From an uncultured Planctomycetota bacterium (GTDB lineage: Bacteria; Planctomycetota; Phycisphaerae; UBA1845; Fen-1342): 64,000 nt of DNA. The DNA is taken from NCBI GenBank assembly GCA_900696525.1, contig CAADGL010000015.1, positions 1 to 64,000 of the forward strand. Direction: 5' to 3'. The notes under the pieces are model-generated. The model searched no databases. It had not been told where the DNA came from and worked only from the letters and a program-made list of their open reading frames with translations. This document shows positions 6,603-17,825 of the stretch, piece after piece. Every line of letters begins with the position of its first letter. Within the stretch, counting starts at the first letter, position 1. Made by a program: the position numbers and the translations under genes.

Positions 6603-7865
6603 TCAGATGCCCGCGTGCTCGACGGCGGCGCCGGGCAGCGGGCGCGTTCGCAGCGCCAGCTCGAATGCCGGCGTGGCCATCAGCGTCGTCACGACCGCCA
6701 TCAGCACCAGCATGCAGTACAGCGTCGGCGTGATGATGCCGCGCTCCAGGCCGATGTTCGCGATGATGAGCTCCATCAGCCCGCGCGAGTTCATCAGGGC
6801 GCCGATCGCCACGGCGTTCCGCGGCGGCTCACCGTTCATCCACGCCGCCATGCCGCAGGCAAGCCCTTTGCCCAATATCGCCACGGCGAGCACGAGCGCC
6901 ATCACGAGCCACAGCCCGGGAGAATCGACCAGCGCCAACCGCGTGTTGAGCCCGGACCAGACGAAGAAGAACGGCACGAGCATCGCCGTCAGCAGCGGCT
7001 CGATGGTCGCGCGCAGCCGCTCCGTCAGCAACCCGCGCGGCATCGCCACGCCCATCAGGAAGCCGCCGAACACCGCGTAGATGCCGATCCAGTCGGTGAA
7101 CCAGCAGCCGAGCGCCACGAGCATCAGCACCCACGCCAGGACGCCGCGGCTCAGCTTGCCTTCACGCTCGACCGCGCGCGCCAGCGGGCGCAGCAGCGGC
7201 CGCAGCACGACCAGCACGAACGCCACGTAGGCCAGCCCGCCGCCGATCGCCCAGACGGCGATGGCGGCCTCGTTCTGAAAGCTCGCCAGCACGATCGCCA
7301 GCACGCACCAGGCCGAAGCGTCGTCGATCGAGCCCGCCGCCAGCGAAAGCGCCCCCAGCCGCGTGCCCGTCAGCCCGCGCTCGAAGATGATCCGCGCCAG
7401 CATCGGAAACGCCGTGATCGACATCGCCGACCCGAGATACAGCATCACCTCCCACGCCGCCGCGTCTTTCGAGAACAGCCGCGCGTCGCCGGCGTACGCA
7501 AGGCCGAGCAGGGCGCCGAGGGCCATCGGCGTGGCGATGCCGGCCATCGACACGGCGACCGCGCCGTGGGCGCGCTCGCGCAGCAGGTCGAAGCGGAACT
7601 CCAGCCCGACGGTGAACATGTAGAACGCGACCGCGACCTGGGCCACCGTGTACAGCACGGGATGGGTCGGCGCCGGGAACAGCGCCGCCTGCCCCTCCGG
7701 CGCCAGGTATCCGAACAGCGACGGGCCCAGCAGCACGCCCGCCACCATCTCGCCCACGACCTGCGGCTGGCCGAGCCGCCGTGCAACCAGCCCGACGACC
7801 CGGCATGCACCCAGGATCGCCGCGAGCTGGAGGAAGAAAAGAACGGAGACATCGAAGTTTGACAA
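6603..7865 (-). CDS. Cation/proton antiporter, CPA2 (Kef/NapA-like) family
   Basis: A 420-residue membrane protein with about 12 transmembrane segments. The family opening is clear (GQPQVVGEMVAGVLLGPSLFG), followed by FYMFTVGLEF and the core segment AGSIDDASAWCVLAI. The SIDDA pair matches the DD ion-binding motif of electrogenic CPA2 antiporters, which suggests Na+/H+ exchange. There is no C-terminal TrkA-N domain, unlike KefB and KefC. The only plausible start that keeps the first helix is TTG at 7865. Neighbours are DeoC upstream (14 bp) and a GT39-type glycosyltransferase downstream (18 bp), so a loose operon is likely. Confidence 0.88.
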   Translation of the reverse strand: MSNFDVSVLFFLQLAAILGACRVVGLVARRLGQPQVVGEMVAGVLLGPSLFGYLAPEGQAALFPAPTHPVLYTVAQVAVAFYMFTVGLEFRFDLLRERAHGAVAVSMAGIATPMALGALLGLAYAGDARLFSKDAAAWEVMLYLGSAMSITAFPMLARIIFERGLTGTRLGALSLAAGSIDDASAWCVLAIVLASFQNEAAIAVWAIGGGLAYVAFVLVVLRPLLRPLARAVEREGKLSRGVLAWVLMLVALGCWFTDWIGIYAVFGGFLMGVAMPRGLLTERLRATIEPLLTAMLVPFFFVWSGLNTRLALVDSPGLWLVMALVLAVAILGKGLACGMAAWMNGEPPRNAVAIGALMNSRGLMELIIANIGLERGIITPTLYCMLVLMAVVTTLMATPAFELALRTRPLPGAAVEHAGI

Positions 7866-7879
7866 GGCGGCGTTCCCGT

Positions 7880-8566
7880 CTACGCGTTGCGCAGTTGCGC
7901 CAGTACGGCCACGCTCGCCGACATGCCCAGCCGGTCTGCGCCGGCCTCCAGCATTGCCCGGGCGATCCGAAGATCCCGAATGCCCCCCGCCGCCTTCACC
8001 TTCAGCGGCGCCGCGTGCTTGCGCAGCAGCGCCACGTGCTCGACTCGCGCGCCCCCTGCCGGGTGCATGCCCGTCGAAGTCTTCACGAAGTCCGCCTGCG
8101 CCTCTGCCGTGCAGCGGCAGCCCTGCACGATCTGCCGCTCGTCCAGCACGGCGGTCTCCAGAATCACCTTGACCAGGACGCGCTCATCCAGCGTTTTCAC
8201 CGCATCGACGACGCTCGCGATGTCGCGGGTCACGAGCTGCGCGTCGCCGCCGGTCAGTGCCCCGATGTTGATCACCATGTCGATCTCGGTGGCGCCCTGC
8301 CTCACCGCGCGGGAGGCTTCCGCGGCCTTGATCTCGGCCAGGCTCGCGCCCAGCGGAAAGCCCGCCACGCTGCAAACACGCGTCGCCGCGCCGTCCAGTC
8401 GCGCCGCGGCGCGCTCGACCCAGACCGGGTTCACGCACGCCGCCACGAAATCGTTCTCGATGCACTCGTCGCAGAGCCGGTCGATCTGCTCCGCGGTGGC
8501 CTCCGGCTTGAGCAGCGTGTGATCGATCAGCCGCGCCCATCCGCGCGCATCCGTCGGTATGACCAT
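7880..8566 (-). CDS. deoC: Deoxyribose-phosphate aldolase
   Basis: DeoC cleaves 2-deoxyribose 5-phosphate to glyceraldehyde 3-phosphate and acetaldehyde, letting cells use deoxynucleosides. The 228-residue product matches the family from end to end: LIDHTLLKPEAT near residue 13, then VCSVAGFPLG, VLVKVILET and the Schiff-base lysine motif FVKTSTG near residue 165. The C-terminal KAAGGIRD phosphate-binding segment is also present. The start is ATG 8566, without a clear Shine-Dalgarno sequence. It is the first gene of the likely deoC-antiporter-GT39 run. Confidence 0.95.
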   Translation of the reverse strand: MVIPTDARGWARLIDHTLLKPEATAEQIDRLCDECIENDFVAACVNPVWVERAAARLDGAATRVCSVAGFPLGASLAEIKAAEASRAVRQGATEIDMVINIGALTGGDAQLVTRDIASVVDAVKTLDERVLVKVILETAVLDERQIVQGCRCTAEAQADFVKTSTGMHPAGGARVEHVALLRKHAAPLKVKAAGGIRDLRIARAMLEAGADRLGMSASVAVLAQLRNA

Positions 8567-8635: not shown

Positions 8636-10396
8636 CTACGCCTGCGGCGCAGACTCGGCGGCGCGCGTCACAAGGCACACGTCCTGGATCGCCGTCCCGA
8701 GCAGCCGCGCCAGCGGCGCCTCGAGCGCCCGCCCGGTGGAGCTGGCCCCGTGCATGACCAGCAGCATGTCGCGGCGGTCGCTGAGCCCCACCAGCACGTC
8801 GTCGCCCGCCCACGCCTGGCGGATCGGGAAACGCCCCGACGCCAGTCGGGCCACGATGTTCTCCTGCTCGTACACCGCCAGAATCCCGGAGTCGCCGCCC
8901 GGCACCACCAGCTCCACCAGGTCGTGCCACGCCCGGACCTGCACCGACTCCAGCGGCCCGCTGCGCCGATAGGGCGCCCACACGTCGTCCGGCCGCAGCC
9001 AGTCGCAGCGGAGCAGCGTCCCGCGGTCCGTGCCGATCAGGAGGCTGGCGTCGTGCACGGCCAGGCAGTGAATGATCCCGTCCACCGACGTCAGCACGTC
9101 CACCTGCTCGCTGGCCGGGTCGTACACCTGCACCCGCGCATCCACCGCATAGAACACGCGCCCGTCGGGCAGCGGCGTCACGGCCCGCACGGCCTTCGGC
9201 AGGCCGTCGCGCGTCTCCAGCAGCGGCAGCGGCTTGACGCTGCCATCCAGCGCCCAGCGCCACAGCCCGAGCTGCGAGTGGGTCGCGAAGAGGTGCTCCC
9301 CCGCAACGCACGCCGAGTTGAAGCCCGTCTTCGGCCGGCCCGCCATCGGCACCGCGCAGCGCGTCACCACCGCGCCGTCGCTCTCGCGCAGCACCCACAC
9401 CCCCGTCGCCGCACCGACAAGCAGCCACCCACGCTCCGCCACGTGCCGCACCGAGCGCACGCCGCCGAGATCGTCCGGCACCTTCACGCGCGAGCGGATC
9501 GACTCCGGCGATTGCGGGTCGAGCCACACGCACTCATCGCCGCCCACCGCCACGATCGCCGGCGTCACCCGCCGGTCCGGGGTCATGCGCCACAGGTTCT
9601 CGAGCAGCCGGCCGCGCTCCGGCGGAGAGAGCGCGGGCAGCAGCTCGTGCCAGCGCAGCGAATCGTCGTTCGCGGCCGCCGCCCGCAGTTTCTCGAGCAC
9701 GCCCGACATGTCCTGGATGCGGCGGGCCATGGCGGCCCGGGCGGCGGACTCGACCATCTCGCGCGCCTGGATGGCCTGAATGCGCTCCTGGGCGTCGCGC
9801 TGGAGGGCCCGCTCGCGTTCCAGCATCTCGCTGCGGAACTCGAGCCTCGCGACCCGGTCCAGCCGTGCGCCGGTCTCGAACAGGAACCGCTTGAGACGCT
9901 CCTGGAGCACGCCGCGCAGCACCTCGCGCAGGTCCGCCGAGACCAGCTCCGCGGCCGCGTGCGACTTGACGAACTCCTGAAGGCCCGCCAATCCGCCGGC
10001 GTTGCGCACGGCCTCGGCCAGTTGCGGCAGCGTCAGCGTGTCGTGCGCGAGCAGTCCGCGCCGCAGCGCCGCCAGGTCGTCCTCCCGCGCCTCCCAGCGC
10101 AGCACGACCTCGCAAACCCCGCTGACCAGCTTGTCATCCTGCGCCGGTGTCCCCTTCGTGCTCAGCGTTACGCTCAGCGGCCGGGCTCGAACCAGCGTGA
10201 GCTTCTCCTCGCGCTGCGGCGACGGATCCTGCCCCGCCGGCACGAACCGCCGCCGCTCGTCGCGCGTCTCAACCAGGCCCAGCCAGCCGTCGGGCACCGG
10301 CGTGTGCGCCAGGAGGTGTCGCGGCCAGAGCTGGCCGTTCAGACAACAGGCGACCAGCATCGGATCGCCCAACAGCGCAAGAACGTCGCGGCTCAT
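8636..10396 (-). CDS. SPFH-like (band 7) domain fused to a beta-propeller-like domain
   Basis: A 586-residue protein with no close family that I can name. Residues ~35-205 follow the SPFH/band-7 pattern: VPDGWLGLVETRDERRRF with an entry glycine, a beta-rich stretch LTLVRARPLSVTLS, a helix-rich part, and FLFETGARLDRVARLEF at the place of the usual GI.v..v motif. Residues ~205-260 are coiled coil. Residues ~285-580 contain repeated beta-strand units such as GWLLVGAATGVWVL and ASLLIGTDRGTLL, suggesting a beta-propeller. SPFH proteins scaffold membrane microdomains, and in bacteria they often neighbour PspA-type ESCRT-III proteins. It is the last gene of the ESCRT-like cluster. The SPFH call is moderate and the propeller call fair. 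Confidence 0.6.
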   Translation of the reverse strand: MSRDVLALLGDPMLVACCLNGQLWPRHLLAHTPVPDGWLGLVETRDERRRFVPAGQDPSPQREEKLTLVRARPLSVTLSTKGTPAQDDKLVSGVCEVVLRWEAREDDLAALRRGLLAHDTLTLPQLAEAVRNAGGLAGLQEFVKSHAAAELVSADLREVLRGVLQERLKRFLFETGARLDRVARLEFRSEMLERERALQRDAQERIQAIQAREMVESAARAAMARRIQDMSGVLEKLRAAAANDDSLRWHELLPALSPPERGRLLENLWRMTPDRRVTPAIVAVGGDECVWLDPQSPESIRSRVKVPDDLGGVRSVRHVAERGWLLVGAATGVWVLRESDGAVVTRCAVPMAGRPKTGFNSACVAGEHLFATHSQLGLWRWALDGSVKPLPLLETRDGLPKAVRAVTPLPDGRVFYAVDARVQVYDPASEQVDVLTSVDGIIHCLAVHDASLLIGTDRGTLLRCDWLRPDDVWAPYRRSGPLESVQVRAWHDLVELVVPGGDSGILAVYEQENIVARLASGRFPIRQAWAGDDVLVGLSDRRDMLLVMHGASSTGRALEAPLARLLGTAIQDVCLVTRAAESAPQA

Positions 10397-10560
10397 TTCG
10401 GCTCACCTCCGCTCCTGTCCGTCCGCTGATGCCCTCTGAGCGCCGCCCGGCCGACTTTCCCGACCGTTCGATTCTATTCTCACGCGCCAACACGCCCGCG
10501 GCCAGTGTGACTTCGACACGCCAGCCCGTCGAGCGCGCCGGCGCACCGCCCGTGGCGCCG

Positions 10561-10881
10561 TCACGCCCGCTGGAAGCTGCACCGCGAGGCCAGCCGGCGG
10601 TTCTTCCACTCGATCATCCCGGGGATCAGCAGCAGATCCACCATTTGCCCAATCCCGAACAGCCCCCACGTCAGCAGCCAGATGATTCCCGTGAGGTACC
10701 GGCCGGCGTAGAAGCGGTGCACACCCGCCACGCCCAGCAACCACAGCGCCCACAGCCCGTACGCCGCTCCCACCGAGCGCATCTCGCCCCCTCCTCCTCC
10801 GACCACACCGCCGCACTGGCCGCAGTAGTTGCCCCAGGTGCTGATCCGCCTCCCGCAATGAGGACACGCCAAGATGGTCAT
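10561..10881 (-). CDS. Zinc-ribbon plus TM2-domain membrane protein
   Basis: A 106-residue protein that starts with a zinc ribbon (CPHCGRR then CGQCGG, residues 6-25). A TM2 domain follows: YGLWALWLLGVAGVHRFYAG and, after a turn, a second helix around IIWLLTWGLFGIGQMVD. The HRFYxG turn between the two helices is the TM2 hallmark. ATG 10881 is chosen because it directly precedes the ribbon. TM2 proteins are small inner-membrane proteins of unsettled function. It lies 68 bp downstream of the Vps4-like ATPase gene, in the same orientation, and probably belongs to the same transcript. Confidence 0.8.
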   Translation of the reverse strand: MTILACPHCGRRISTWGNYCGQCGGVVGGGGGEMRSVGAAYGLWALWLLGVAGVHRFYAGRYLTGIIWLLTWGLFGIGQMVDLLLIPGMIEWKNRRLASRCSFQRA

Positions 10882-10949
10882 CTCATGCTCCGGCAAACCC
10901 GCTCCCCCGGCTGGACCACAGCCGCCCTCGGCTGCCCACCCACCGGTCG

Positions 10950-12080
10950 CTACGCCGTATTCCGCGCCCACTCGTCGAACTTCGCCACGTCTTTCGGGCT
11001 GACCGAGGGCGGCGTCTCCTGAAGCACCGCCAGCACGTCGGCCCGCATGATCTTACGGGCGGCGGCTCCGGCGACCGATTCCAAAAACGGGCGGCTTGCC
11101 GCACGGGCGGCGATGGCCTTGATGTCGGCGCCGCTGTACCCGGCGCTCAGCTCCGCCAGCTCGGCGAAGTTCACGTCGTCGTCGATCGGCCGCTTACCCA
11201 GGTAGATCTCAAACAGCCGCAGCCGCGCCGGCGCGTCCGGCAGCGGGATGTACACCTTCGTGTCGAGCCGGCCGGGCCGCATCATCGCCGAGTCCAACGC
11301 CCAGGGCTCGTTCGTCGCGCCCAGGAACATCAGCGCCCGGTCCGCCTTGCGGTCGAAGCCTTCCAGCTCCTGGAGAATCTGCGGCACGACGCGCTGCATC
11401 ACCGTCGAGTCGCTGCTGCGGCGCTTCGGCACCAGCGCCTCGACCTCGTCCATGAAGATGACCGCCTTCGCCTCCGCCTTGGCCGCGTCGAAGAGCTTCC
11501 GCACGTTCTGCTCGGCCTCCCCCACCCACTTGCTCATGATCTGCGCCGGGCTGATCACGAACATCGTCGCGTCCAGCTCCGTCGCGATCGCCTTCGCGAA
11601 CATCGTCTTGCCCGTCCCAGGGGGGCCGAACATCAGCATCCCCCCGCCCACGTCGATGCCGTATTGCGCGGCCAGCTCCCGGTGCCGGAACGGGTAGATC
11701 ATCTTCAGATGAATCTCCTCCTTCACCTCGTCCAGCCCGGCGATGTCGTCAAACCGGACGTCCGGCTTCTCCCGGACAACCCAGTCCTCGGCCTTCGCCC
11801 CGTCCTCGTCCTCCGTCCGCATCCGGTCCCCGCGCTTCCCGCCGCCGCCGGCCCCGCCGCCGCGGCGGAGCTTGCGGTCGCAGTCGCGGGCCAGCTCCAT
11901 CAGCTCCTTGGCATACTGCTCCTGCTCGGCCCGCTGAGTGAGGTCCTTGTTCTCCTCGGCCAGCTCGACCATGCACTCGGCGGCCTGCACGAGATAGGGC
12001 TTGGCGGCGGCGTACTCGCCGGCCTTCAGCGCGGCGACGCCCTTGTCCTTGAGCCGCTGGAATGTGGCGAAGGTGGCCAT
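10950..12080 (-). CDS. Vps4-like AAA+ ATPase with N-terminal MIT-like domain
   Basis: A 376-residue meiotic-clade-type AAA+ ATPase. Residues 5-70 form a three-helix MIT-like domain (KDKGVAALKAGEYAAAKPYL, then AEENKDL and YAKELMELARDC). A Gly-rich basic linker runs from 71 to 100. The ATPase core starts at FDDIAGLDEVKEEI (110-123). It contains Walker A GPPGTGKT (152-159), pore loop SKWVGEAE (183-190), Walker B VIFMDE (207-212), sensor GATN (254-257) and arginine-finger region MMRPGR. The pore-loop tryptophan and the C-terminal PPSVSPKDVAKFDEW helix match Vps4, which disassembles ESCRT-III. The Vps4 beta domain seems absent, since only about 20 residues separate GYSGADIKAIA from the final helices. 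It sits in a cluster with three ESCRT-III-like genes. General AAA+ assignment is certain; the Vps4-like role is inferred. Confidence 0.88.
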   Translation of the reverse strand: MATFATFQRLKDKGVAALKAGEYAAAKPYLVQAAECMVELAEENKDLTQRAEQEQYAKELMELARDCDRKLRRGGGAGGGGKRGDRMRTEDEDGAKAEDWVVREKPDVRFDDIAGLDEVKEEIHLKMIYPFRHRELAAQYGIDVGGGMLMFGPPGTGKTMFAKAIATELDATMFVISPAQIMSKWVGEAEQNVRKLFDAAKAEAKAVIFMDEVEALVPKRRSSDSTVMQRVVPQILQELEGFDRKADRALMFLGATNEPWALDSAMMRPGRLDTKVYIPLPDAPARLRLFEIYLGKRPIDDDVNFAELAELSAGYSGADIKAIAARAASRPFLESVAGAAARKIMRADVLAVLQETPPSVSPKDVAKFDEWARNTA

Positions 12081-12128
12081 CCGTCACCTTGATCTCACGC
12101 TATCTGACGTAGCCAACTCGGCGCAGCG

Positions 12129-12737
12129 TCAGGCATCGCGCCGCGGCGGATCGGTCTCATCCTCCTCGATCCGCCGGGCGATGCAATCCAGGTACGCCCC
12201 GCGCGTCGCCGGGGCCAGCCGGGCGGCGAACGCCGCGTCCAGCCCGTTCGCACGGATCAGCCTGGCCGCGTACGCCAAATCCTGCAACCGCCCCGTCACC
12301 AGGCACAGTTCCAGCAGCCGCTCCAGCGTCGGCACCGGCACGCCCTCGCGCTCCACCGCCTCCGCCGGGTCCGGCAGGCGTATTTCCGGGTAACGAAACC
12401 GGTCGCCGGCGGGTTCGCCGCTGGCGAGGAAATGGGCCTCGAGCTGTGTGGCGGGGTCGTAGACCGTCCACGCCTTGCCTGGCGAAGCCACGAACCCGGC
12501 GTGCTCGACCAGCGCCTTCGCCTTCGCGCGTTCCGCGGACGCCGCGCACAGGTGGAAGTCCAGCGCGTGCGAGCCGACCCCGTACAAGTGAACCGCCACC
12601 GAGCCAACAAAGACGTGCGGCAGACCCGTGGAGCGCACGGCGCGAACCAGGTGGCGAAAGCAGCCGCCAAAAGGTGAAGCGTCGCCAAACAACCCCAACG
12701 CGCCGCGCAGTTCGGATTTGAGCCGTGGTTGGGTCAT
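12129..12737 (-). CDS. Nucleotidyltransferase-fold-like protein, function unknown
   Basis: A 202-residue protein. The segment HVFVGSVAVHLYG followed by LDFHLCAAS resembles the GS...DxD opening of minimal nucleotidyltransferases (AbiEii/DUF6036-like). The second Asp is not clearly conserved (DFH), so it may be inactive. The C-terminal half is helical (LERLLELCLVTGRLQDL). The start ATG 12737 is the first in frame after the divergent gene's promoter space. It lies 48 bp upstream of the Vps4-like gene and is transcribed towards it. It could be an inserted pair with the divergent gene at 12753, only 15 bp away. The function is not assigned. Confidence 0.5.
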   Translation of the reverse strand: MTQPRLKSELRGALGLFGDASPFGGCFRHLVRAVRSTGLPHVFVGSVAVHLYGVGSHALDFHLCAASAERAKAKALVEHAGFVASPGKAWTVYDPATQLEAHFLASGEPAGDRFRYPEIRLPDPAEAVEREGVPVPTLERLLELCLVTGRLQDLAYAARLIRANGLDAAFAARLAPATRGAYLDCIARRIEEDETDPPRRDA

Positions 12738-12752
12738 CGCTATGCCGCCCGA

Positions 12753-13196
12753 ATGCCCGAGACGGCATCCCGGGATTCTGATGAGACCCTGCTGGAGGGC
12801 TTTCTGCGCGATCGGGATTGTCCCTGCCCCATCTGCCAATACAACCTGCGCGGCCTCGCGGGGGCGACCTGCCCGGAGTGTGGATCACCGCCGCATCTCA
12901 GCCTGAACTCGCCCAACACGCGCGTCGGCCCCTTCGTTCTTGCGCTCGCTCCATTGCTCATGATCGGAGGCGTGGGAGTGCTGCTCCTGATCGCGATCGC
13001 GAGGCACCCACAGGCACTGAGTGAGGGATTGCAGGTTCCGATGGCCGCCGGAGCACTGTCCCTGCTGACCGCGGCGTGGCTGCTGTTTCGTCGCACGCGG
13101 TTCCTGTGCCTGTCCAGGGAAGCCCAAAGCGCCGCGGCCTTGGCGGCCTGGTCCGCGTTCCTGTTCGCGTGCGGCTGGGCAGCCTCAATGCTGTGA
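12753..13196 (+). CDS. Zinc-ribbon membrane protein
   Basis: A 147-residue protein on the plus strand inside a minus-strand cluster. Residues 17-45 form a ribbon CPICQYNLRGL...CPECG, a form I associate with planctomycete genomes. Three or four hydrophobic helices follow (ALAPLLMIGGVGVLLLIAIA, AAGALSLLTAAWLLF and a last one). ATG 12753 (MPETASR) is preferred over a TTG eight codons upstream, which would overlap the divergent gene. It is convergent with the ESCRT-III-like gene at 13233. The role is unknown; it may be independent of the flanking cluster. Confidence 0.7.
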   Translation: MPETASRDSDETLLEGFLRDRDCPCPICQYNLRGLAGATCPECGSPPHLSLNSPNTRVGPFVLALAPLLMIGGVGVLLLIAIARHPQALSEGLQVPMAAGALSLLTAAWLLFRRTRFLCLSREAQSAAALAAWSAFLFACGWAASML

Positions 13197-13232
13197 GGAG
13201 ACCGGCGATTCCAAGATCGACGGTGTGCGGCA

Positions 13233-13844
13233 TCACTTCGCTTCCTTGTCCGCGCTCTCCCCCTTCAACTCCGCCAGCTCCGCCCGCAGCGCCGACATCT
13301 GCTGGGCCTCGCGGCTCTTCTCGACCGCTTCCTCCGCCTCGATCATGCGGTCGATCTCCGCGTCACTGATCGCCTCCGCCGGCGCCGCGCTGACGTCCGC
13401 CGCCGCCGCATCCTGCAAGCCGTCGAGGAAGAGGGCCATGCGCTCCTCCATGCTCTGCGACTGGGCCATCGCCTTCTCCCACGCGAGCTGCGTCTGGGCC
13501 AGGTTCATCCCGCCGTAGAGCTTGGCGACCTCGCTGGCCATCAGGCTCATCGCCCCGGCGAAATCGGCGCTGGCCTCGGCCTGGCGCTTGATGAGCAGCG
13601 CGTTCTTCACCGCCAGGAGCTGCCGCTCCAGCAGCTTCTTGATCGCGGCGGTCTTCTTCAGCGAGCTGCGGATGAACGCGTACGACTGCGTGTCGCCGAT
13701 CGTCTTCGCCTGCCGCGCGTTCTTGACGAACTCGTCGGTGAACTTGTTCTGCTCGGCGATGGCCTTCTCGATCCGCCGGATGCCCTGGCGGATCTTCATG
13801 TCGCGCTCGATGCGACGCTCTTCCTTGGACTTGAACAACCCCAT
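13233..13844 (-). CDS. ESCRT-III-like (Snf7/CHMP-type) protein with MIM1-like tail
   Basis: A 203-residue, almost wholly helical protein. It begins MGLFKSKEER, like the short membrane-inserting N-termini of CHMP proteins. A long basic helix pair follows (about 11-45 and 52-105: IRQGIRRIEKAIAEQN, then FIRSSLKKTAAIKKLLERQL). Next comes MASEVAKLYGGMNLAQTQL and an acidic C-terminal region. This charge pattern, basic first half and acidic second half, is the ESCRT-III layout. Residues 186-194 (LRAELAELK) fit the MIM1 pattern LxxRLxxL(K/R) except for the Arg, as expected for a ligand of the MIT domain in the neighbouring Vps4-like ATPase. PspA/Vipp1 is the alternative relative; both belong to one superfamily. 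It has a GAGG ribosome site. The fold call is inferred from the sequence alone. Confidence 0.6.
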   Translation of the reverse strand: MGLFKSKEERRIERDMKIRQGIRRIEKAIAEQNKFTDEFVKNARQAKTIGDTQSYAFIRSSLKKTAAIKKLLERQLLAVKNALLIKRQAEASADFAGAMSLMASEVAKLYGGMNLAQTQLAWEKAMAQSQSMEERMALFLDGLQDAAAADVSAAPAEAISDAEIDRMIEAEEAVEKSREAQQMSALRAELAELKGESADKEAK

Positions 13845-13882
13845 GTGGGCGCCTCGTTGGAGGTGGGATGCGTGTGAGCGGC

Positions 13883-14488
13883 CTACTCCGTTGCTCGCTG
13901 CCGTTCGCGCACGCGCCGTTCTGCCTCGTCAAACGCTTCGCTGTCGCTCTTGATCAGCCCGTGATCCATCGCGTCCCAGACCTGGAGCAACTCCGCCGCC
14001 GCCGGCGAGACGGCGGCGGTCTCCTCGTCGGCCGACGCGCCGATCCTCAGAATCTCGTCCAGCCGCTCCTGGTACATCTCCATGCTGATGCGGTCGTTCT
14101 CGATCAGGCGCTCGATTGTCGCCAGGTCGCCCTCGCGGATCATCCCCATCGCCCCGCCGCGCATGCCCGCCCGCTGGGCGCTCTCGCGCAGCAGCCGCAG
14201 CCGCGACACGGTCAGCAGCTCCTTGCTGCGGATGTTCAGGTGCCGCATCAGCATCGCCTGCTCGGTGTGCAGCAGGTCGTACTGCTGGGCGAACGTCCTC
14301 CGCAGCTCCGGCGTCTTCTCCTTGGCTCCCTTGCCGATGATCCCCTGCTTGTCCGCCGCCAGCTTCTGCACGCGCGCCAGCATGCGGTCGCGCTCGCTGG
14401 TCAGCAGCATCTCCTGGGCGCGCAATTCCGAGGCGTCCATCGTCACCAGCGTCTTGCGCTTCGACACCAGCCATTCAAAGAAGTTCAT
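13883..14488 (-). CDS. Helical protein, second ESCRT-III-like candidate
   Basis: A 201-residue, highly helical protein opening with MNFFEWLVSKRKTL, a short amphipathic and basic segment. Residues ~17-48 and 58-105 are long charged helices (LRAQEMLLTSERDRMLARVQ, then LRRTFAQQYDLLHTEQAML). Residues 113-150 include REGDLATIERLIENDRISME, resembling the region before the autoinhibitory helices of CHMP proteins. The C-terminus is mixed in charge. Size, order and position between two other ESCRT-III-like genes support the call, but no diagnostic motif is seen, so a generic coiled-coil protein remains possible. It is separated from the next gene by 38 bp. Confidence 0.45.
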   Translation of the reverse strand: MNFFEWLVSKRKTLVTMDASELRAQEMLLTSERDRMLARVQKLAADKQGIIGKGAKEKTPELRRTFAQQYDLLHTEQAMLMRHLNIRSKELLTVSRLRLLRESAQRAGMRGGAMGMIREGDLATIERLIENDRISMEMYQERLDEILRIGASADEETAAVSPAAAELLQVWDAMDHGLIKSDSEAFDEAERRVRERQRATE

Positions 14489-14569
14489 CCGGCTCTCGAA
14501 TCACGCAGGATTATGAAATCGCACTACACGGTCCGCACGTGCAGCTCGGCGGCACGGCGGCCGAATGGC

Positions 14570-16027
14570 TCACCCGACCTCCGGCTTCGCCGATTCGCGC
14601 GTCTTGCCGCCCGGCGGATTCGCCGGCGCCGGGCTCGCAGTGGGCGTCGCCGTCCGAGGCGTTTTCGCCGCCTCCGGGGCCGGGGCGGCCTGGGCGGCGG
14701 GCGCGGATTGCTGGCTGGCCGCCGCCTGCTTGAACTCTTCCATGATCGCCAGCTCTTCCTCCGCCATCATCGGCGATTCGCCGGTCACTTCGATGCTGCG
14801 GGCCAGGTCGGCGTTGGCGCTCAGCTCGGCGATCAGCCCTTCGGCCTCCGCCGCCTGCCTGGTGAGCTCCTCCGCCTTCGGCAGCGACATGCGCCGGCCC
14901 TGCTCGGCCAGCGTCATATGGTGGATGTGCGTGCCGATGATGTCGATCTGCTGCGTGAAGATGTTCGCCTGCGAGCGGATCCGTCCCAGCTCGCGCCGCA
15001 CGCGCACCAGCTTGCCCGCGGCCTGCTTTCGCTCCACGTCCGTCTTCGCGGCGGCGCCGGTCTGGACGATCTCGCGCTCCTGGGCCTCCAGCGCGCCGAT
15101 CCGCCCGTCCAGCTCGTGCCGCTGCTGCTCCAGCCGTACGCGCTGCGCCGTCATTTGCCGAACCTGCTCGGCCACGCTTGGCTTGGCGCCGAACAGCCTG
15201 CGAATCCGGGCCCATATGCTCATCGTCTCGCCTTCCGTCTGCTCCAGCGGGCTGCGCGCCACGTGCAGTTGCCCGTCGTGCACCACCGTCATCAGCCGCG
15301 GCTGCGTCCGGCACGCCTGCCGCACCAGCAGCTCCGTCTGCGCCAGCGGCAGCCCGGCCCGCTGCGACAGCTCTCGCAGCGGAATGCCCCGGGAATCCAG
15401 CGCCAGCGCGTCCTGCTCCAGGTGATGCAGCACGCGCCGCAGCCGGTCGTCCTGCGTCTCAAGCTCGAACAGCCGCGCCCAGGCCGAGCTCCGCAGCCCC
15501 GCCGGCATGTCCACGTCCCAACCGCCATCCGGCCGCAGGCCCATCAGCACCAGCGTCGGCGGGCCGCCGCCTTCGGCCATCCGCCGCGCCTCGGGCGTGA
15601 ACCCGGTCGCGCTGGCCAGGACGACGCCGGTCGGCCGCTCCGAGGCGGGCAGCACCTGGTAGCGGGCCAGCGCCGCCAGCACCTGCTCGCGGCCGATCGG
15701 CCCCGGCGACTGGCCGCGCACGAACTCCTCAACCGGGGTCAGCACGCGGGCCCGCATCCGCACCAGCGTGCTGCGCAGCAGGCCGCCCAGGTGAGACTTC
15801 TGAAAGCGGAACTGCGCGGCGCGCGTGCCCGGCATGCCGTCCAGCGCGCCGCGATCGAAGACCTCCAGCCGCCGCAGCGTGTCGCGGACGTCCTCGATCC
15901 CCTCCGCCGTGGGCTCGACGAGCACGATGTCCGCCGGCAGCAGCCCGCGCGTCAGGGCCAGGGCGCGGGCGCGCAGTTGCGCGAGGAACTGCTCCTCGAA
16001 CTGATGCTGTCGGCTGCGCTCATCCAT
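14570..16027 (-). CDS. Winged-helix protein fused to an ESCRT-III-like domain (CHMP7-like layout)
   Basis: A 485-residue protein. Residues 1-178 are an unassigned alpha/beta region; GVVLASATGFTPEARRMAE followed by PTLVLMG recalls Mrr-type endonuclease folds, but weakly. Residues 183-260 form a winged helix (RLRRVLHHLEQD, IPLRELSQRAGLPLAQTELL, then the wing LMTVVHDGQLHVAR). Residues 269-435 are ESCRT-III-like: MSIWARIRRLFG, like the CHMP4 N-terminus, then long charged helices and an acidic segment EEELAIMEEF. Residues 440-485 are a Pro/Ala-rich tail. ATG 16027 is chosen because it overlaps the stop of the small upstream gene (ATGGATGA). A second start with a good ribosome site lies inside at 15223. 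The closest known layout is eukaryotic CHMP7, a winged-helix ESCRT-III protein. Confidence 0.6.
   Translation of the reverse strand: MDERSRQHQFEEQFLAQLRARALALTRGLLPADIVLVEPTAEGIEDVRDTLRRLEVFDRGALDGMPGTRAAQFRFQKSHLGGLLRSTLVRMRARVLTPVEEFVRGQSPGPIGREQVLAALARYQVLPASERPTGVVLASATGFTPEARRMAEGGGPPTLVLMGLRPDGGWDVDMPAGLRSSAWARLFELETQDDRLRRVLHHLEQDALALDSRGIPLRELSQRAGLPLAQTELLVRQACRTQPRLMTVVHDGQLHVARSPLEQTEGETMSIWARIRRLFGAKPSVAEQVRQMTAQRVRLEQQRHELDGRIGALEAQEREIVQTGAAAKTDVERKQAAGKLVRVRRELGRIRSQANIFTQQIDIIGTHIHHMTLAEQGRRMSLPKAEELTRQAAEAEGLIAELSANADLARSIEVTGESPMMAEEELAIMEEFKQAAASQQSAPAAQAAPAPEAAKTPRTATPTASPAPANPPGGKTRESAKPEVG
15206..15223 (-). promoter_or_regulatory. Internal ribosome site and ATG that could yield a free ESCRT-III-like subunit
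   Basis: Reading the minus strand, GGAAGG lies seven bases upstream of an in-frame ATG at 15223, at codon 269 of the fused gene. The protein from this ATG would be 217 residues and would begin MSIWARIRRLFG, a typical ESCRT-III N-terminus. This placement is what a second, shorter product would need. Use of the site is inferred. Confidence 0.45.
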
Positions 16028-16265
16028 GCACGTCCGTCGTTTCGCGCTCGGCGCCCAGCGCCTGCCCGCACTGCGCACAGTAACGCGCATGTGCGGCATT
16101 AACATGTCGACAGCGCCCGCAGGTCCGCGGCGACGGGCCGCCCGGGAGGCCGATCAGCGCCCGGCCGGCGCGCGCCATCATCGACACCAGCGCGCCGATC
16201 AGCGTCGCCAGCATCAGGATGAAGCCGACGATCCCCACGATCATCAGCCCCACCACCCATAGCAT
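16020..16265 (-). CDS. Small membrane protein with C-terminal zinc ribbon
   Basis: An 81-residue protein. It has one strong N-terminal hydrophobic helix pair (VGLMIVGIVGFILMLATLIG, residues 5-24, and a short following segment), then a cytoplasmic zinc ribbon CGRCRHVNAAHARYCAQCG near residues 49-67. The ATG at 16265 is used; a GTG five codons upstream (16280) is also possible. It begins just after the kinase stop (16273) and overlaps the start of the winged-helix/ESCRT-III-like gene by eight bases. This tight spacing indicates one operon and coupled translation. Confidence 0.7.
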   Translation of the reverse strand: MLWVVGLMIVGIVGFILMLATLIGALVSMMARAGRALIGLPGGPSPRTCGRCRHVNAAHARYCAQCGQALGAERETTDVHG

Positions 16266-16272
16266 GCCACCG

Positions 16273-17343
16273 TCAGCCACCACTGCTGCCTTCCATTTCC
16301 CCAAGCCGGCTGCCGCACAGGATGCAGAAGCGGTCGAACGGCCCCGGGTACTGCCCGCACGAGCCGCAGCGCCGCACGTGCGCCACGAGCTGCCGGCCGC
16401 AGCTCGTGCAGAACTGGTCGTGCGGGCCCGCGAGCTGCCCGCAGCGGGCACACGCCTGCCGGCCGAGCGCGACGTGCCGCGCCGGCGACTGGCCCGCCGA
16501 CGGAGCGCCCGCCGGCCGCACGCCCGCGGCGCGTTCCAAGTCATGCAGAACGGCGGCGGCACTCTCGTAGCGGCGCTCATAGCGCGCGTACACCTTGGCG
16601 AAAATCTCGTCGAGCGCCCGCGGGATGCCGCCGCGCAGCGAACTGGGCAGCTCCGCACCGGCGGGCCGCTGGCCGGTCAGGAGCTCGAAGAGCACGATCC
16701 CGACGGAGTAAAGGTCGCTGCGCACGTCGGGTTTGTGCCCGTCGTCGCGCAGCTCCGGCGCGATGTACGCCAGCGTGCCGACCAGCCGGTTGTCGCGCTC
16801 CAGCGACGCCGACTGCGCCACGGCCTTGAGTCCCTCGGCGTCACCCACGCCGAGGCCAAAATCGCTGAGCTTGACATCCTCGACGGCGACGCGCGGCAGC
16901 GGCTTGTCGTTCAGGTTCAGCAGCACGTTGCCGGGCTTCAGGTCGCGGTGCAGGACGTTGGCGGCGTGGGCCGCCTGGAGCCCGCGCAGCATGCCGCGCA
17001 TCACCGTTGTCGCGATCTGGAGCCCGACGCCCTCGCGGCGTTCGTTGAGCACGTCGCGCAGCGAAGGGCCGTTGACGAGCTCCATGACGAGGTACGGGTG
17101 CTCGGCGTACGGATCGAGCCCGACGACGCGCACGATGTTCGGATGGCGCAGGCCGTGCACCATCACGCCTTCGCGTTGCAGGTAGCGCACGTAGTCGGGC
17201 TCGGTCGGCAGCTTCACCGCGACCAGGTCTTTCTCCCAGATGTGGTGCCGCGCCCGCCAGACCTCGCCAAACGTGCCGGTGCCCAGCAACTGCTCCAGCA
17301 CGTACTCGCTGATCCGGACGCCGGCGCTGTATCGGCTGCTCAT
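16273..17343 (-). CDS. Ser/Thr protein kinase with two C-terminal zinc ribbons
   Basis: A 356-residue Hanks-type kinase. Landmarks are the Gly loop LGTGTFGEVW (20-29), catalytic Lys44 in VAVKL, the catalytic loop HRDLKPGN (132-139), DFG (161-163) and APE (195-197). All key residues are present, so it should be active. Residues 298-343 carry two CxxC-x10-CxxC ribbons (C298, C301, C312, C315; C326, C329, C340, C343). There is no membrane segment, unlike PknB. It lies seven to eight bases upstream of the small zinc-ribbon membrane gene and in the same run as the ESCRT-like genes. A role in regulating that module by phosphorylation is inferred from position. Confidence 0.9.
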   Translation of the reverse strand: MSSRYSAGVRISEYVLEQLLGTGTFGEVWRARHHIWEKDLVAVKLPTEPDYVRYLQREGVMVHGLRHPNIVRVVGLDPYAEHPYLVMELVNGPSLRDVLNERREGVGLQIATTVMRGMLRGLQAAHAANVLHRDLKPGNVLLNLNDKPLPRVAVEDVKLSDFGLGVGDAEGLKAVAQSASLERDNRLVGTLAYIAPELRDDGHKPDVRSDLYSVGIVLFELLTGQRPAGAELPSSLRGGIPRALDEIFAKVYARYERRYESAAAVLHDLERAAGVRPAGAPSAGQSPARHVALGRQACARCGQLAGPHDQFCTSCGRQLVAHVRRCGSCGQYPGPFDRFCILCGSRLGEMEGSSGG

Positions 17344-17414
17344 GGTGCGACTGCCTCTTCTCTACCCGGCCAAGCCAGCCCGCGGGCCCCGCCCGGCCGG
17401 CCAACCGCCTGCGC

Positions 17415-17825
17415 TCAACCCCCCGACATCTCCGCGAGGTACTCCGTCACCAGATAATTATACGTCGTGGCCACTCCCATCGCCCCCAGGCCCGCCAGCC
17501 AGCCCCACGCGCCCGCAGGCCATCCGGTCATCAGGCACACGCCCACGACCACGTCGATCAGCGAGTAGCCCGCGATCAGCGCCGCTCCGGCCCAGTTCGA
17601 CCCCTGCTCCAGCACGCGCCCGATGAACAGCCGCGCCGACCACGGCACGGCCGCCGCCGCCGCCACCCACACCACGCTCCGCCACACGCCGCTCCAGATC
17701 GCGCCCTTCGTCTCGGCGGGCATCTGCCAGATGCCCACGCCGATCGCGATCAGCAGCCCGAGCGCGATCCAGCCGAGGACCTTCTCCCCCAGCCGCCCCA
17801 GAACTCCGCCGCCTGGCGTCTCCAT
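17415..17825 (-). CDS. Small polytopic membrane protein, function unknown
   Basis: A 136-residue protein with about four hydrophobic helices (VLGWIALGLLIAIGVGIW near residue 16, VVWVAAAAAVPW, AGAALIAGYSLIDVVVGVCL and the last, GWLAGLGAMGVATTYNYL). No family is recognised. It is the first gene of the minus-strand run that includes the kinase and ESCRT-like genes (71-bp gap to the kinase) and may be the promoter-proximal gene of that cluster. Confidence 0.65.
   Translation of the reverse strand: METPGGGVLGRLGEKVLGWIALGLLIAIGVGIWQMPAETKGAIWSGVWRSVVWVAAAAAVPWSARLFIGRVLEQGSNWAGAALIAGYSLIDVVVGVCLMTGWPAGAWGWLAGLGAMGVATTYNYLVTEYLAEMSGG

Follow-up and report, generated by a model that had tools for sequence, protein, structure and literature searches.

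We identified a conserved locus that probably encodes an ESCRT-III filament and AAA motor module in a stretch of 64,000 nucleotides, hereafter the window, of the planctomycete contig CAADGL010000015.1. Its predicted function is to remodel the inner membrane, where it would be placed by SPFH and zinc-ribbon proteins and switched by a kinase. The module spans positions 8636 to 17825, with the starts of some genes taken shorter than in the mechanical open reading frames. All of the genes named in the first-pass annotation of this DNA are present, and they lie on the minus strand except for a single opposed gene, as had been described. In the order of transcription, the minus-strand genes encode a small membrane protein, a Ser/Thr kinase, a short zinc-ribbon protein, three helical proteins named E3, E2 and E1 here, the product of the gene at 12129-12737, an AAA ATPase, a TM2/zinc-ribbon protein and an SPFH/propeller protein. 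We compared the locus with 61 relatives, 20 stretches fetched from the same order, 294 genomes across the phylum, and 20 stretches from other classes and families.

E1 (13233..13844, minus strand) is a protein of 203 residues with a helix layout like that of CHMP2 and CHMP3. In a broad alignment of the E1 family, 16 of 22 members matched Snf7 (PF03357) with a best E of 2.7e-6, and the next family matched 3 of the 22. Four orthologues exceed the Pfam cut-off for Snf7, under which a Sulfolobus acidocaldarius control stayed. Snf7 matches occurred in 26 of the 294 genomes across the phylum, and in 25 of these the place of the match coincides with the E1 gene. When the broad profile was compared with 177,635 PDB sequences, the best eight of ten hits were CHMP3, SNF7 and CHMP2A (E 0.0012 to 0.24). 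Additionally, an hhalign comparison of the E1 profile with five eukaryotic ESCRT-III sequences scored 44.0, with a maximum of 19.3 over 30 column shuffles and 15.7 on reversal. Because sequence, and not shape alone, ties E1 to the Snf7 and CHMP proteins in several controlled tests, we firmly assign it to the Snf7/ESCRT-III superfamily on the evidence of its orthologous family.

The predicted structure of E1 is consistent with this assignment. Helices at residues 7-49, 52-110, 115-153 and 161-202 form the arrangement that characterizes ESCRT-III, in which alpha3 and alpha4/5 come after a long hairpin of alpha1 and alpha2. The model's twelve best Foldseek hits all belong to the ESCRT-III superfamily (E 0.029-0.47), Vipp1 is among its fold hits, and 102 residues superpose on the Snf7 core at 1.6 Å. 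The first-pass annotation had named folds unrelated to ESCRT-III and PspA as the outcome that would speak against it, and this did not occur, as the predicted helices and the family sequences both point to ESCRT-III. E1 is 61-83% identical to the window copy in 19 aligned relatives. Near its C-terminus it carries the conserved tail LRAELAELK, and the pattern L..E[LI]..[LV]K is found here in all 20 members of the narrow alignment; the tail differs in other classes. We take this motif to resemble MIM1 (LxxRLxxLK) with the R replaced by E.

The putative motor is an AAA ATPase of 376 residues (10950..12080, minus strand) with an N-terminal domain that is conserved among relatives, one AAA domain and a Vps4_C-type C-terminus. 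Pfam found AAA, AAA_lid_3, Vps4_C, Pkinase and TM2 in the window's proteins, with AAA, Vps4_C, the kinase and TM2 above their cut-offs; for the ATPase, AAA scored 135 bits and Vps4_C 23.5 bits against a cut-off of 21.3. A similar C-terminal helix also ends the D2 domain of Cdc48, so this end is unspecific. The Walker motifs are present (Walker A, GPPGTGKT), the pore loop SKWVGEAE is invariant in the alignment, and 14 relatives are 57-76% identical to the window copy. CdvC is the best NCBIfam match at 228.8 bits, far below the equivalog cut-off of 650, and the ATPase is 38% identical to yeast Vps4 and 38% identical to each of the D1 and D2 domains of planctomycete Cdc48. In a phylogenetic tree, it forms its own clade with orthologues from other classes, and the single Vps4 reference, on a long branch, is drawn with a second type of AAA protein. 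By its sequence, the enzyme is a classical-clade AAA ATPase with a Vps4-like C-terminus. Because the MIT domain went unmatched, the enzyme forms its own clade and its identity to Vps4 and Cdc48 is equal, we describe it as Vps4-like and refrain from classifying it as Vps4. The Vps4-type label of the first-pass annotation held for the AAA domain and the C-terminal end; the CdvC score falls short, and the tree does not place the enzyme.

The second AAA type, of about 400 residues, lies near E1 in loci of other classes (L096-L101, L104, L105, L107, L109, L113 and L114). Seven of the 20 stretches that represent other classes and families (L100, L101, L104, L105, L109, L113 and L114) have E1 placed between the two types, and in four loci examined from one family, f36, the second type is the sole AAA found beside E1. 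A different AAA ATPase, of 448 residues and with an N-terminus that looks TPR-like by eye, is encoded in a genome without E1 (G054, locus L120). It is possibly an example of the TPR-bearing, Vps4-like type in bacteria that is mentioned in the sections of PMC11237479 drawn on here.

E3 (14570..16027, minus strand) consists of two halves. An AlphaFold2 model with a mean confidence (pLDDT, predicted local distance difference test) of 79 overall, and mostly above 90 in the N-terminal half, predicts an alpha/beta domain and then a winged helix (residues ~233-284) in the N-terminal half, E3N (15224..16027). The C-terminal half, E3C (14570..15223), is predicted to be helical (residues 297-304, 311-352, 356-401, 411-441 and 445-467), with a long hairpin and the helix order of ESCRT-III. 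An hhalign comparison of E3C with ESCRT-III scored 30.4 over 48 columns (shuffle maximum 14.9), and in a search of the PDB with the E3C profile CdvB came at rank 11 of 12 with an E of 2.4. Snf7 was among the commonest Pfam matches of the E3 set (4 of 15 members, best E 0.3), tied with two unrelated families. The narrow E3 alignment gave 18 PDB hits, for the most part chance ones such as designed coiled coils. For the whole-E3 model, Foldseek gave mainly winged-helix proteins, with RPB5 as well; none of the 50 listed hits reached E≤0.001 or was an ESCRT-III protein. We consider the ESCRT-III-like character of E3C to be moderately supported by sequence comparison and model.

E2 (13883..14488, minus strand) is a helical protein of 201 residues that is homologous to E3C (hhalign 96%, E 4.3e-9). 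Compared directly with ESCRT-III it scored 16.7, with a shuffle maximum of 15.1; the broad E2 set had no Pfam support and a sole PDB hit, ATG16-1 at E 0.032, and the narrow alignment matched nothing in the PDB up to E 10. E2 is likely to be ESCRT-III-like, a link that runs solely through its homology to E3C. The three ESCRT-III-like proteins of the first-pass annotation are thus firmly placed for E1, moderately for E3C and only by way of E3C for E2.

E3C may be made as a separate protein as well. Among 15 fused proteins, counting that of the window, the start codon within the gene (15221-15223, minus strand) reads ATG in 13 and GTG in 2. By eye, GGAG or GAGG stands close upstream of it in 12 of the 15; the window differs in having GGAAGG. 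In four loci of other classes (L102, L103, L104 and L107), the halves are separate genes, and they are fused in one (L110). Because the start codon is conserved and E3C is a gene of its own in those four loci, we think it likely that E3C is also translated separately from the internal start.

The module is not confined to the window. At E≤0.001, a protein database contained 2230 relatives of E1 and 644 of E2, and among the best 120 listed for each, all those with a named organism were from Planctomycetota (Phycisphaerae, Phycisphaerales or Planctomycetes); an E1 of Phycisphaerae bacterium RAS1 is among the E1 matches. Other families of the order, and to some extent other classes of the phylum, retain the genes, usually with their order unchanged. 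The kinase, E3, E2, E1 and the ATPase stand in one row in 14 of the 20 stretches fetched from the order, and the conservation of the gene row is far beyond chance. A scan of named genomes that reached outside the phylum, made with a single N-terminal pattern and keeping 80 of 139 loci, returned Phycisphaerae, Phycisphaerales, Tepidisphaeraceae, Humisphaera and other planctomycetes, and one locus labelled just 'bacterium'. AAA matches were found in 1470 plasmid records, none of which covers 80% of the ATPase.

E1 and the ATPase also occur together. Among the 61 relatives, 48 have both, 10 have neither, 2 have only the ATPase and 1 has only E1 (Fisher 8e-9, uncorrected for relatedness), and in one of the two ATPase-only genomes (G018) part of E1 is preserved where a contig ends (L019). 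The two genes lie within 5 kb of each other in 35 of the 48; in the rest they are split between contigs, or share a contig at distances of 7 kb and 3.4 Mb. ATPases that are never adjacent to the helical proteins, the other outcome that the first-pass annotation had named against itself, were therefore not what we found, and the survey of gene neighborhoods that it proposed recovered the five-gene row within the order. By the neighborhood criterion used in the sections of PMC10936438 drawn on here, under which a gene beside ESCRT components is a Vps4, the ATPase counts as one in those 35 relatives. Six loci (L037, L043, L044, L046, L047 and L053) have the ATPase without E1 within the stretch taken. 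Across the 294 genomes of the phylum, with the ATPase called present at 300 bits or more, E1 is found in 54 and the ATPase in 36; 32 genomes have both, 4 only the ATPase and 22 only E1. We asked in passing whether the family f36 comprises anammox bacteria and dropped this idea, as HZS_alpha matched 1 of 7 f36 genomes and 1 of 13 others, both partly.

The remaining genes encode the putative partners. The SPFH protein (8636..10396, minus strand; 586 residues) has an SPFH (Band_7) domain, a probable coiled coil and a C-terminal beta-propeller. Band_7 was matched in 4 of 14 relatives (best E 1.1e-6) and the family hits WD40 propellers in the PDB, which bears out the SPFH-like and propeller description at the level of the family; the window's own copy has no Band_7 match. 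In 18 of the 20 stretches fetched from the order, its gene adjoins that of the ATPase. The kinase (16273..17343, minus strand; Pkinase, 132 bits) carries a C-terminal double zinc ribbon (DZR, E 1.1e-5) and lies upstream of E3 in 14 of the 20. A zinc ribbon is combined with a TM2 domain (52.2 bits against a cut-off of 27.9) in the membrane protein at 10561..10881 (minus strand), which is found in 3 of the 20 and in some of a further set of loci. The kinase and TM2 protein of the first-pass annotation are thus confirmed, and their zinc ribbons score under the Pfam cut-off.

Other members of the row are less well characterized. The first gene (17415..17825, minus strand) encodes a small hydrophobic protein, probably membrane-bound to judge from the hydrophobic stretches read in its sequence; it has no Pfam match and adjoins the kinase gene in 12 of the 20 fetched relatives. 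A short protein (16020..16265, minus strand) is encoded between the kinase and E3. In its sequence we read a single hydrophobic segment and a zinc ribbon of the CxxC type, and a 57-residue piece of it, searched along with the other proteins of the row, had no match among those listed. An optional gene (12129..12737, minus strand) between E1 and the ATPase, present in 3 of the 20, has no Pfam or NCBIfam match; its motif GSVAVHLYG is reminiscent of nucleotidyltransferase-fold proteins. The opposed gene (12729..13196, plus strand, start probably at 12753) encodes a zinc-ribbon membrane protein and is an inconsistent member of the module. Scans for promoters and terminators in the window gave nothing above chance, and a repeat scan gave weak matches only. 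Downstream of the module stand two further minus-strand genes, 7880-8566 and 6603-7865, which by eye we take to be like deoxyribose-phosphate aldolase and a cation/proton antiporter. A gene of the 7880-8566 type also follows the SPFH gene in 4 of the 20 fetched relatives.

Three things are observed directly: E1 is homologous to ESCRT-III, the gene row is conserved, and E1 and the ATPase occur together. Beyond homology and gene order, we infer the following mechanism. E1, E3C and E2 would co-assemble into membrane-bound filaments at a site anchored by the SPFH/propeller protein and the small zinc-ribbon membrane proteins, with the winged-helix half of E3 nucleating the filament. The ATPase would grip the tail of a subunit, for example the LRxELxxLK of E1, and thread it through its pore, and this threading could lead to filament turnover, constriction or reshaping of the membrane. 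The kinase may set the timing. The most likely cellular use would be remodeling or repair of the inner membrane.

A number of results weigh against this interpretation. The window's own E1 has no Snf7 match, unlike its orthologues, and at E up to 1 neither it nor E2 or E3 matches a Pfam family of relevance. All Foldseek hits of E1 have E values above 0.001, and the overall superpositions are poor. In a second structural comparison, BAR domains gave a Z of 10.0 (4.7-6.1 Å), above the best ESCRT-III row at 8.2 (3.1 Å) and the Snf7 cores at 7.7 (1.6-1.9 Å). A profile search of the PDB with the narrow E1 alignment found nothing up to E 10, and only the broad alignment reached ESCRT-III. By hhalign, E1 does not match E2 or E3C (0.8 and 0.9%). 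The CDC48 score of the ATPase, 226.2 bits, nearly equals its CdvC score and is the higher of the two in another class, and the tree leaves it equally close to Cdc48 and Vps4. Pfam MIT was unmatched in three N-termini of the ATPase and two of the second AAA type, and the ATPase N-terminus showed no similarity to the MIT domain of yeast Vps4 above shuffles. Of the families to which the first-pass annotation had pointed, Snf7 was therefore recovered in E1 orthologues and Vps4_C in the ATPase, while MIT went unmatched and PspA_IM30 had no match at the E1 locus. The distribution is also uneven. Sixteen of the 22 E1-only genomes, in which this ATPase is missing, are the E1-positive members of the family f36, and one genome that is 98% complete (G171) has a relative of the ATPase without E1. 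Outside the order, E2 is found in 5 of 20 fetched loci, doubled in 3 of them (L104, L105 and L107), and E3C in 5 of 20, with at most the N-terminal half of E3 found elsewhere. Because E2 and E3C are each present in 5 of 20 loci, the constant core outside the order is E1 and an AAA protein, which is narrower than the row in the window. Finally, polymerization, membrane binding and motor action are predictions, and we infer the action of the ATPase on the polymers, as the first-pass annotation did.

Some of these results could be read as convergent helical hairpins, that is, coiled-coil scaffolds unrelated to ESCRT that are served by a Cdc48-like unfoldase. The similar CDC48 and CdvC scores of the ATPase, the higher Z of BAR domains for the E1 model and the lack of a direct ESCRT-III match for E2 all favor such a reading. 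We nonetheless find it quite improbable given that several controlled sequence tests link E1 to Snf7 and CHMP proteins and that arfaptin BAR domains fit its model at 4.7-6.7 Å, compared to 1.6 Å for the Snf7 core. It is also unlikely that E1 represents a PspA that has diverged, in a row that would be a Psp operon acting as an envelope-stress system of the PspA/Vipp1 type. The literature links PspA, Snf7 and SPFH proteins (in the sections of PMC10936438 and PMC11237479 drawn on here), Vipp1 is among the fold hits of E1, and PspA occurs in 4 of 12 relatives without E1 compared to 5 of 49 with it (p 0.065), as though either could stand in for the other. However, none of the PspA (PF04012) matches, found in 9 of the 61 relatives, is at the E1 locus, where the Snf7 family is matched in 25 genomes, and PspA is outside the 25 commonest of the 57 families that match the broad E1 set. 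A defense or conflict system, suggested by the kinase, the AAA protein and a possible nucleotidyltransferase-like gene, seems very improbable to us. PADLOC matched the kinase to PD-T4-6 (182 bits) and the AAA protein to IetA (130 bits), but these matches are generic, and E1, E2, E3 and the SPFH protein are matched by no PADLOC model. Unlike mobile defense islands, the row is kept through whole families at high identity.

The most probable alternative is that the module is the cytokinesis machine of bacteria without FtsZ, in which filaments and an AAA motor constrict or cut the inner membrane as in Cdv archaea. According to the sections of PMC6952346 drawn on here, Phycisphaerae divide by a process like binary fission without FtsZ, and the protein that drives it is unidentified in the literature. 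FtsZ (PF00091) is found in none of the 54 E1-positive genomes of the phylum sample and in only 1 of the 61 relatives. This one (G013) is an E1-positive bin, 8% contaminated, and its hit (G013:C302:1288-1770, L035) is possibly foreign. The window's genome gave no PspA match, and E1 is strongly conserved. Nevertheless, the absence of FtsZ does not follow E1, as 234 of 240 E1-negative genomes lack it too, leaving FtsZ in 6 of the 294. In one family (f4), 7 of 10 genomes are without E1; five of these are 97-99% complete, and 4 of the seven have PspA. Besides the window's genome, all of the E1-positive genomes in the phylum sample are labelled 'same phylum', at least 20 genomes of the same class are negative, and we noticed no division gene adjoining the module. 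Because near-complete relatives without FtsZ also lack the module, a role in division is disfavored, and we regard it as a doubtful possibility. The distribution of E1, PspA and FtsZ is somewhat easier to reconcile with membrane upkeep than with an engine that division cannot do without. As a separate observation, three genomes of one genus in the same class (G217, G269 and G321; family f14, 99% complete) have tubulin/FtsZ matches that are above the cut-off at just 37-40 bits, although the phylum is said to be without FtsZ.

Compared with known systems, the module most resembles those of archaea. A 2024 survey, in the sections drawn on here, confines the pairing of ESCRT-III with an AAA protein to archaea and eukaryotes. 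The excerpted account of non-Asgard archaeal ESCRT loci (main, Halo_FHA and Meth_adaptin clades; Makarova et al. 2024, PMC10936438) likewise describes ESCRT-III beside Vps4-type AAA, winged-helix proteins and Ser/Thr kinases, and its Meth_adaptin clade has an SPFH protein, with a coiled coil and a zinc ribbon, as the module has an SPFH partner. In contrast to these loci, the host here is a bacterium, MIT was not detected, a single protein joins the winged helix to an ESCRT-III-like half, and a beta-propeller is part of the SPFH protein. The Cdv system of Thermoproteota (CdvB/CdvC) shares with the module the combination of ESCRT-III with a Vps4-type AAA protein in cells without FtsZ, and no NCBIfam model matches the ATPase better than CdvC; the ATPase is below the CdvC cut-off, however, and division is only a candidate role here. 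PspA/Vipp1 and PSP systems belong to the same superfamily and have links to SPFH proteins and AAA ATPases (PMC11237479 and PMC10936438, in the sections drawn on here). The E1 family, however, matches Snf7 and not PspA, and its partner is a single-domain AAA protein with a Vps4_C-type end in a genome where no PspA was found. CHMP7 is a comparable fusion of a winged helix to ESCRT-III, but the alpha/beta N-terminal domain of E3 differs from it, and the halves of E3 are separate genes in the four loci noted above.

Bacterial relatives have been described as well. A 2022 preprint (bioRxiv 10.1101/2022.11.08.515611), known to us by its title only, reportedly concerns ESCRT-III homologues in multicellular magnetotactic bacteria and their relevance to morphogenesis. 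Ravi et al. 2024 (PMC11237479), in the sections drawn on here, report VPS4-like AAA proteins in bacteria and bacterial Snf7 homologues with a transmembrane segment beside AAA genes. In the transferred VPS4-like genes of that study, snf7 is displaced by an unrelated gene for TPRs plus six transmembrane segments, whereas here the ESCRT-III gene stays, along with the kinase, winged-helix and SPFH genes. The string 'planctomycet' is absent from the main text of PMC11237479, and ESCRT, Snf7 and Vps4 do not occur in PMC12283558. Judged by title, abstract or the sections drawn on, no paper describing the module in Planctomycetota was among the matches listed from the open-licence PMC literature, preprint servers excluded. 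Because there are bacterial Vps4-like genes, some with Snf7 beside the AAA gene (PMC11237479, in the sections drawn on here), and a preprint title on bacterial ESCRT-III, the module is not a new category.

A conserved bacterial locus that unites ESCRT-III, AAA, winged-helix, kinase and SPFH genes shifts where and when the partnership of filament and motor could have arisen. For the Planctomycetota, the module is a concrete candidate for membrane scission in a phylum whose division without FtsZ is unexplained in the sections of PMC6952346 drawn on here. It is conceivable, though we think it rather unlikely, that the module is the missing division motor of these bacteria, an archaeal-like ESCRT machine that cuts the inner membrane at cytokinesis. 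If so, the ESCRT-III/AAA partnership in bacteria would either predate the archaea or have come through ancient transfer.

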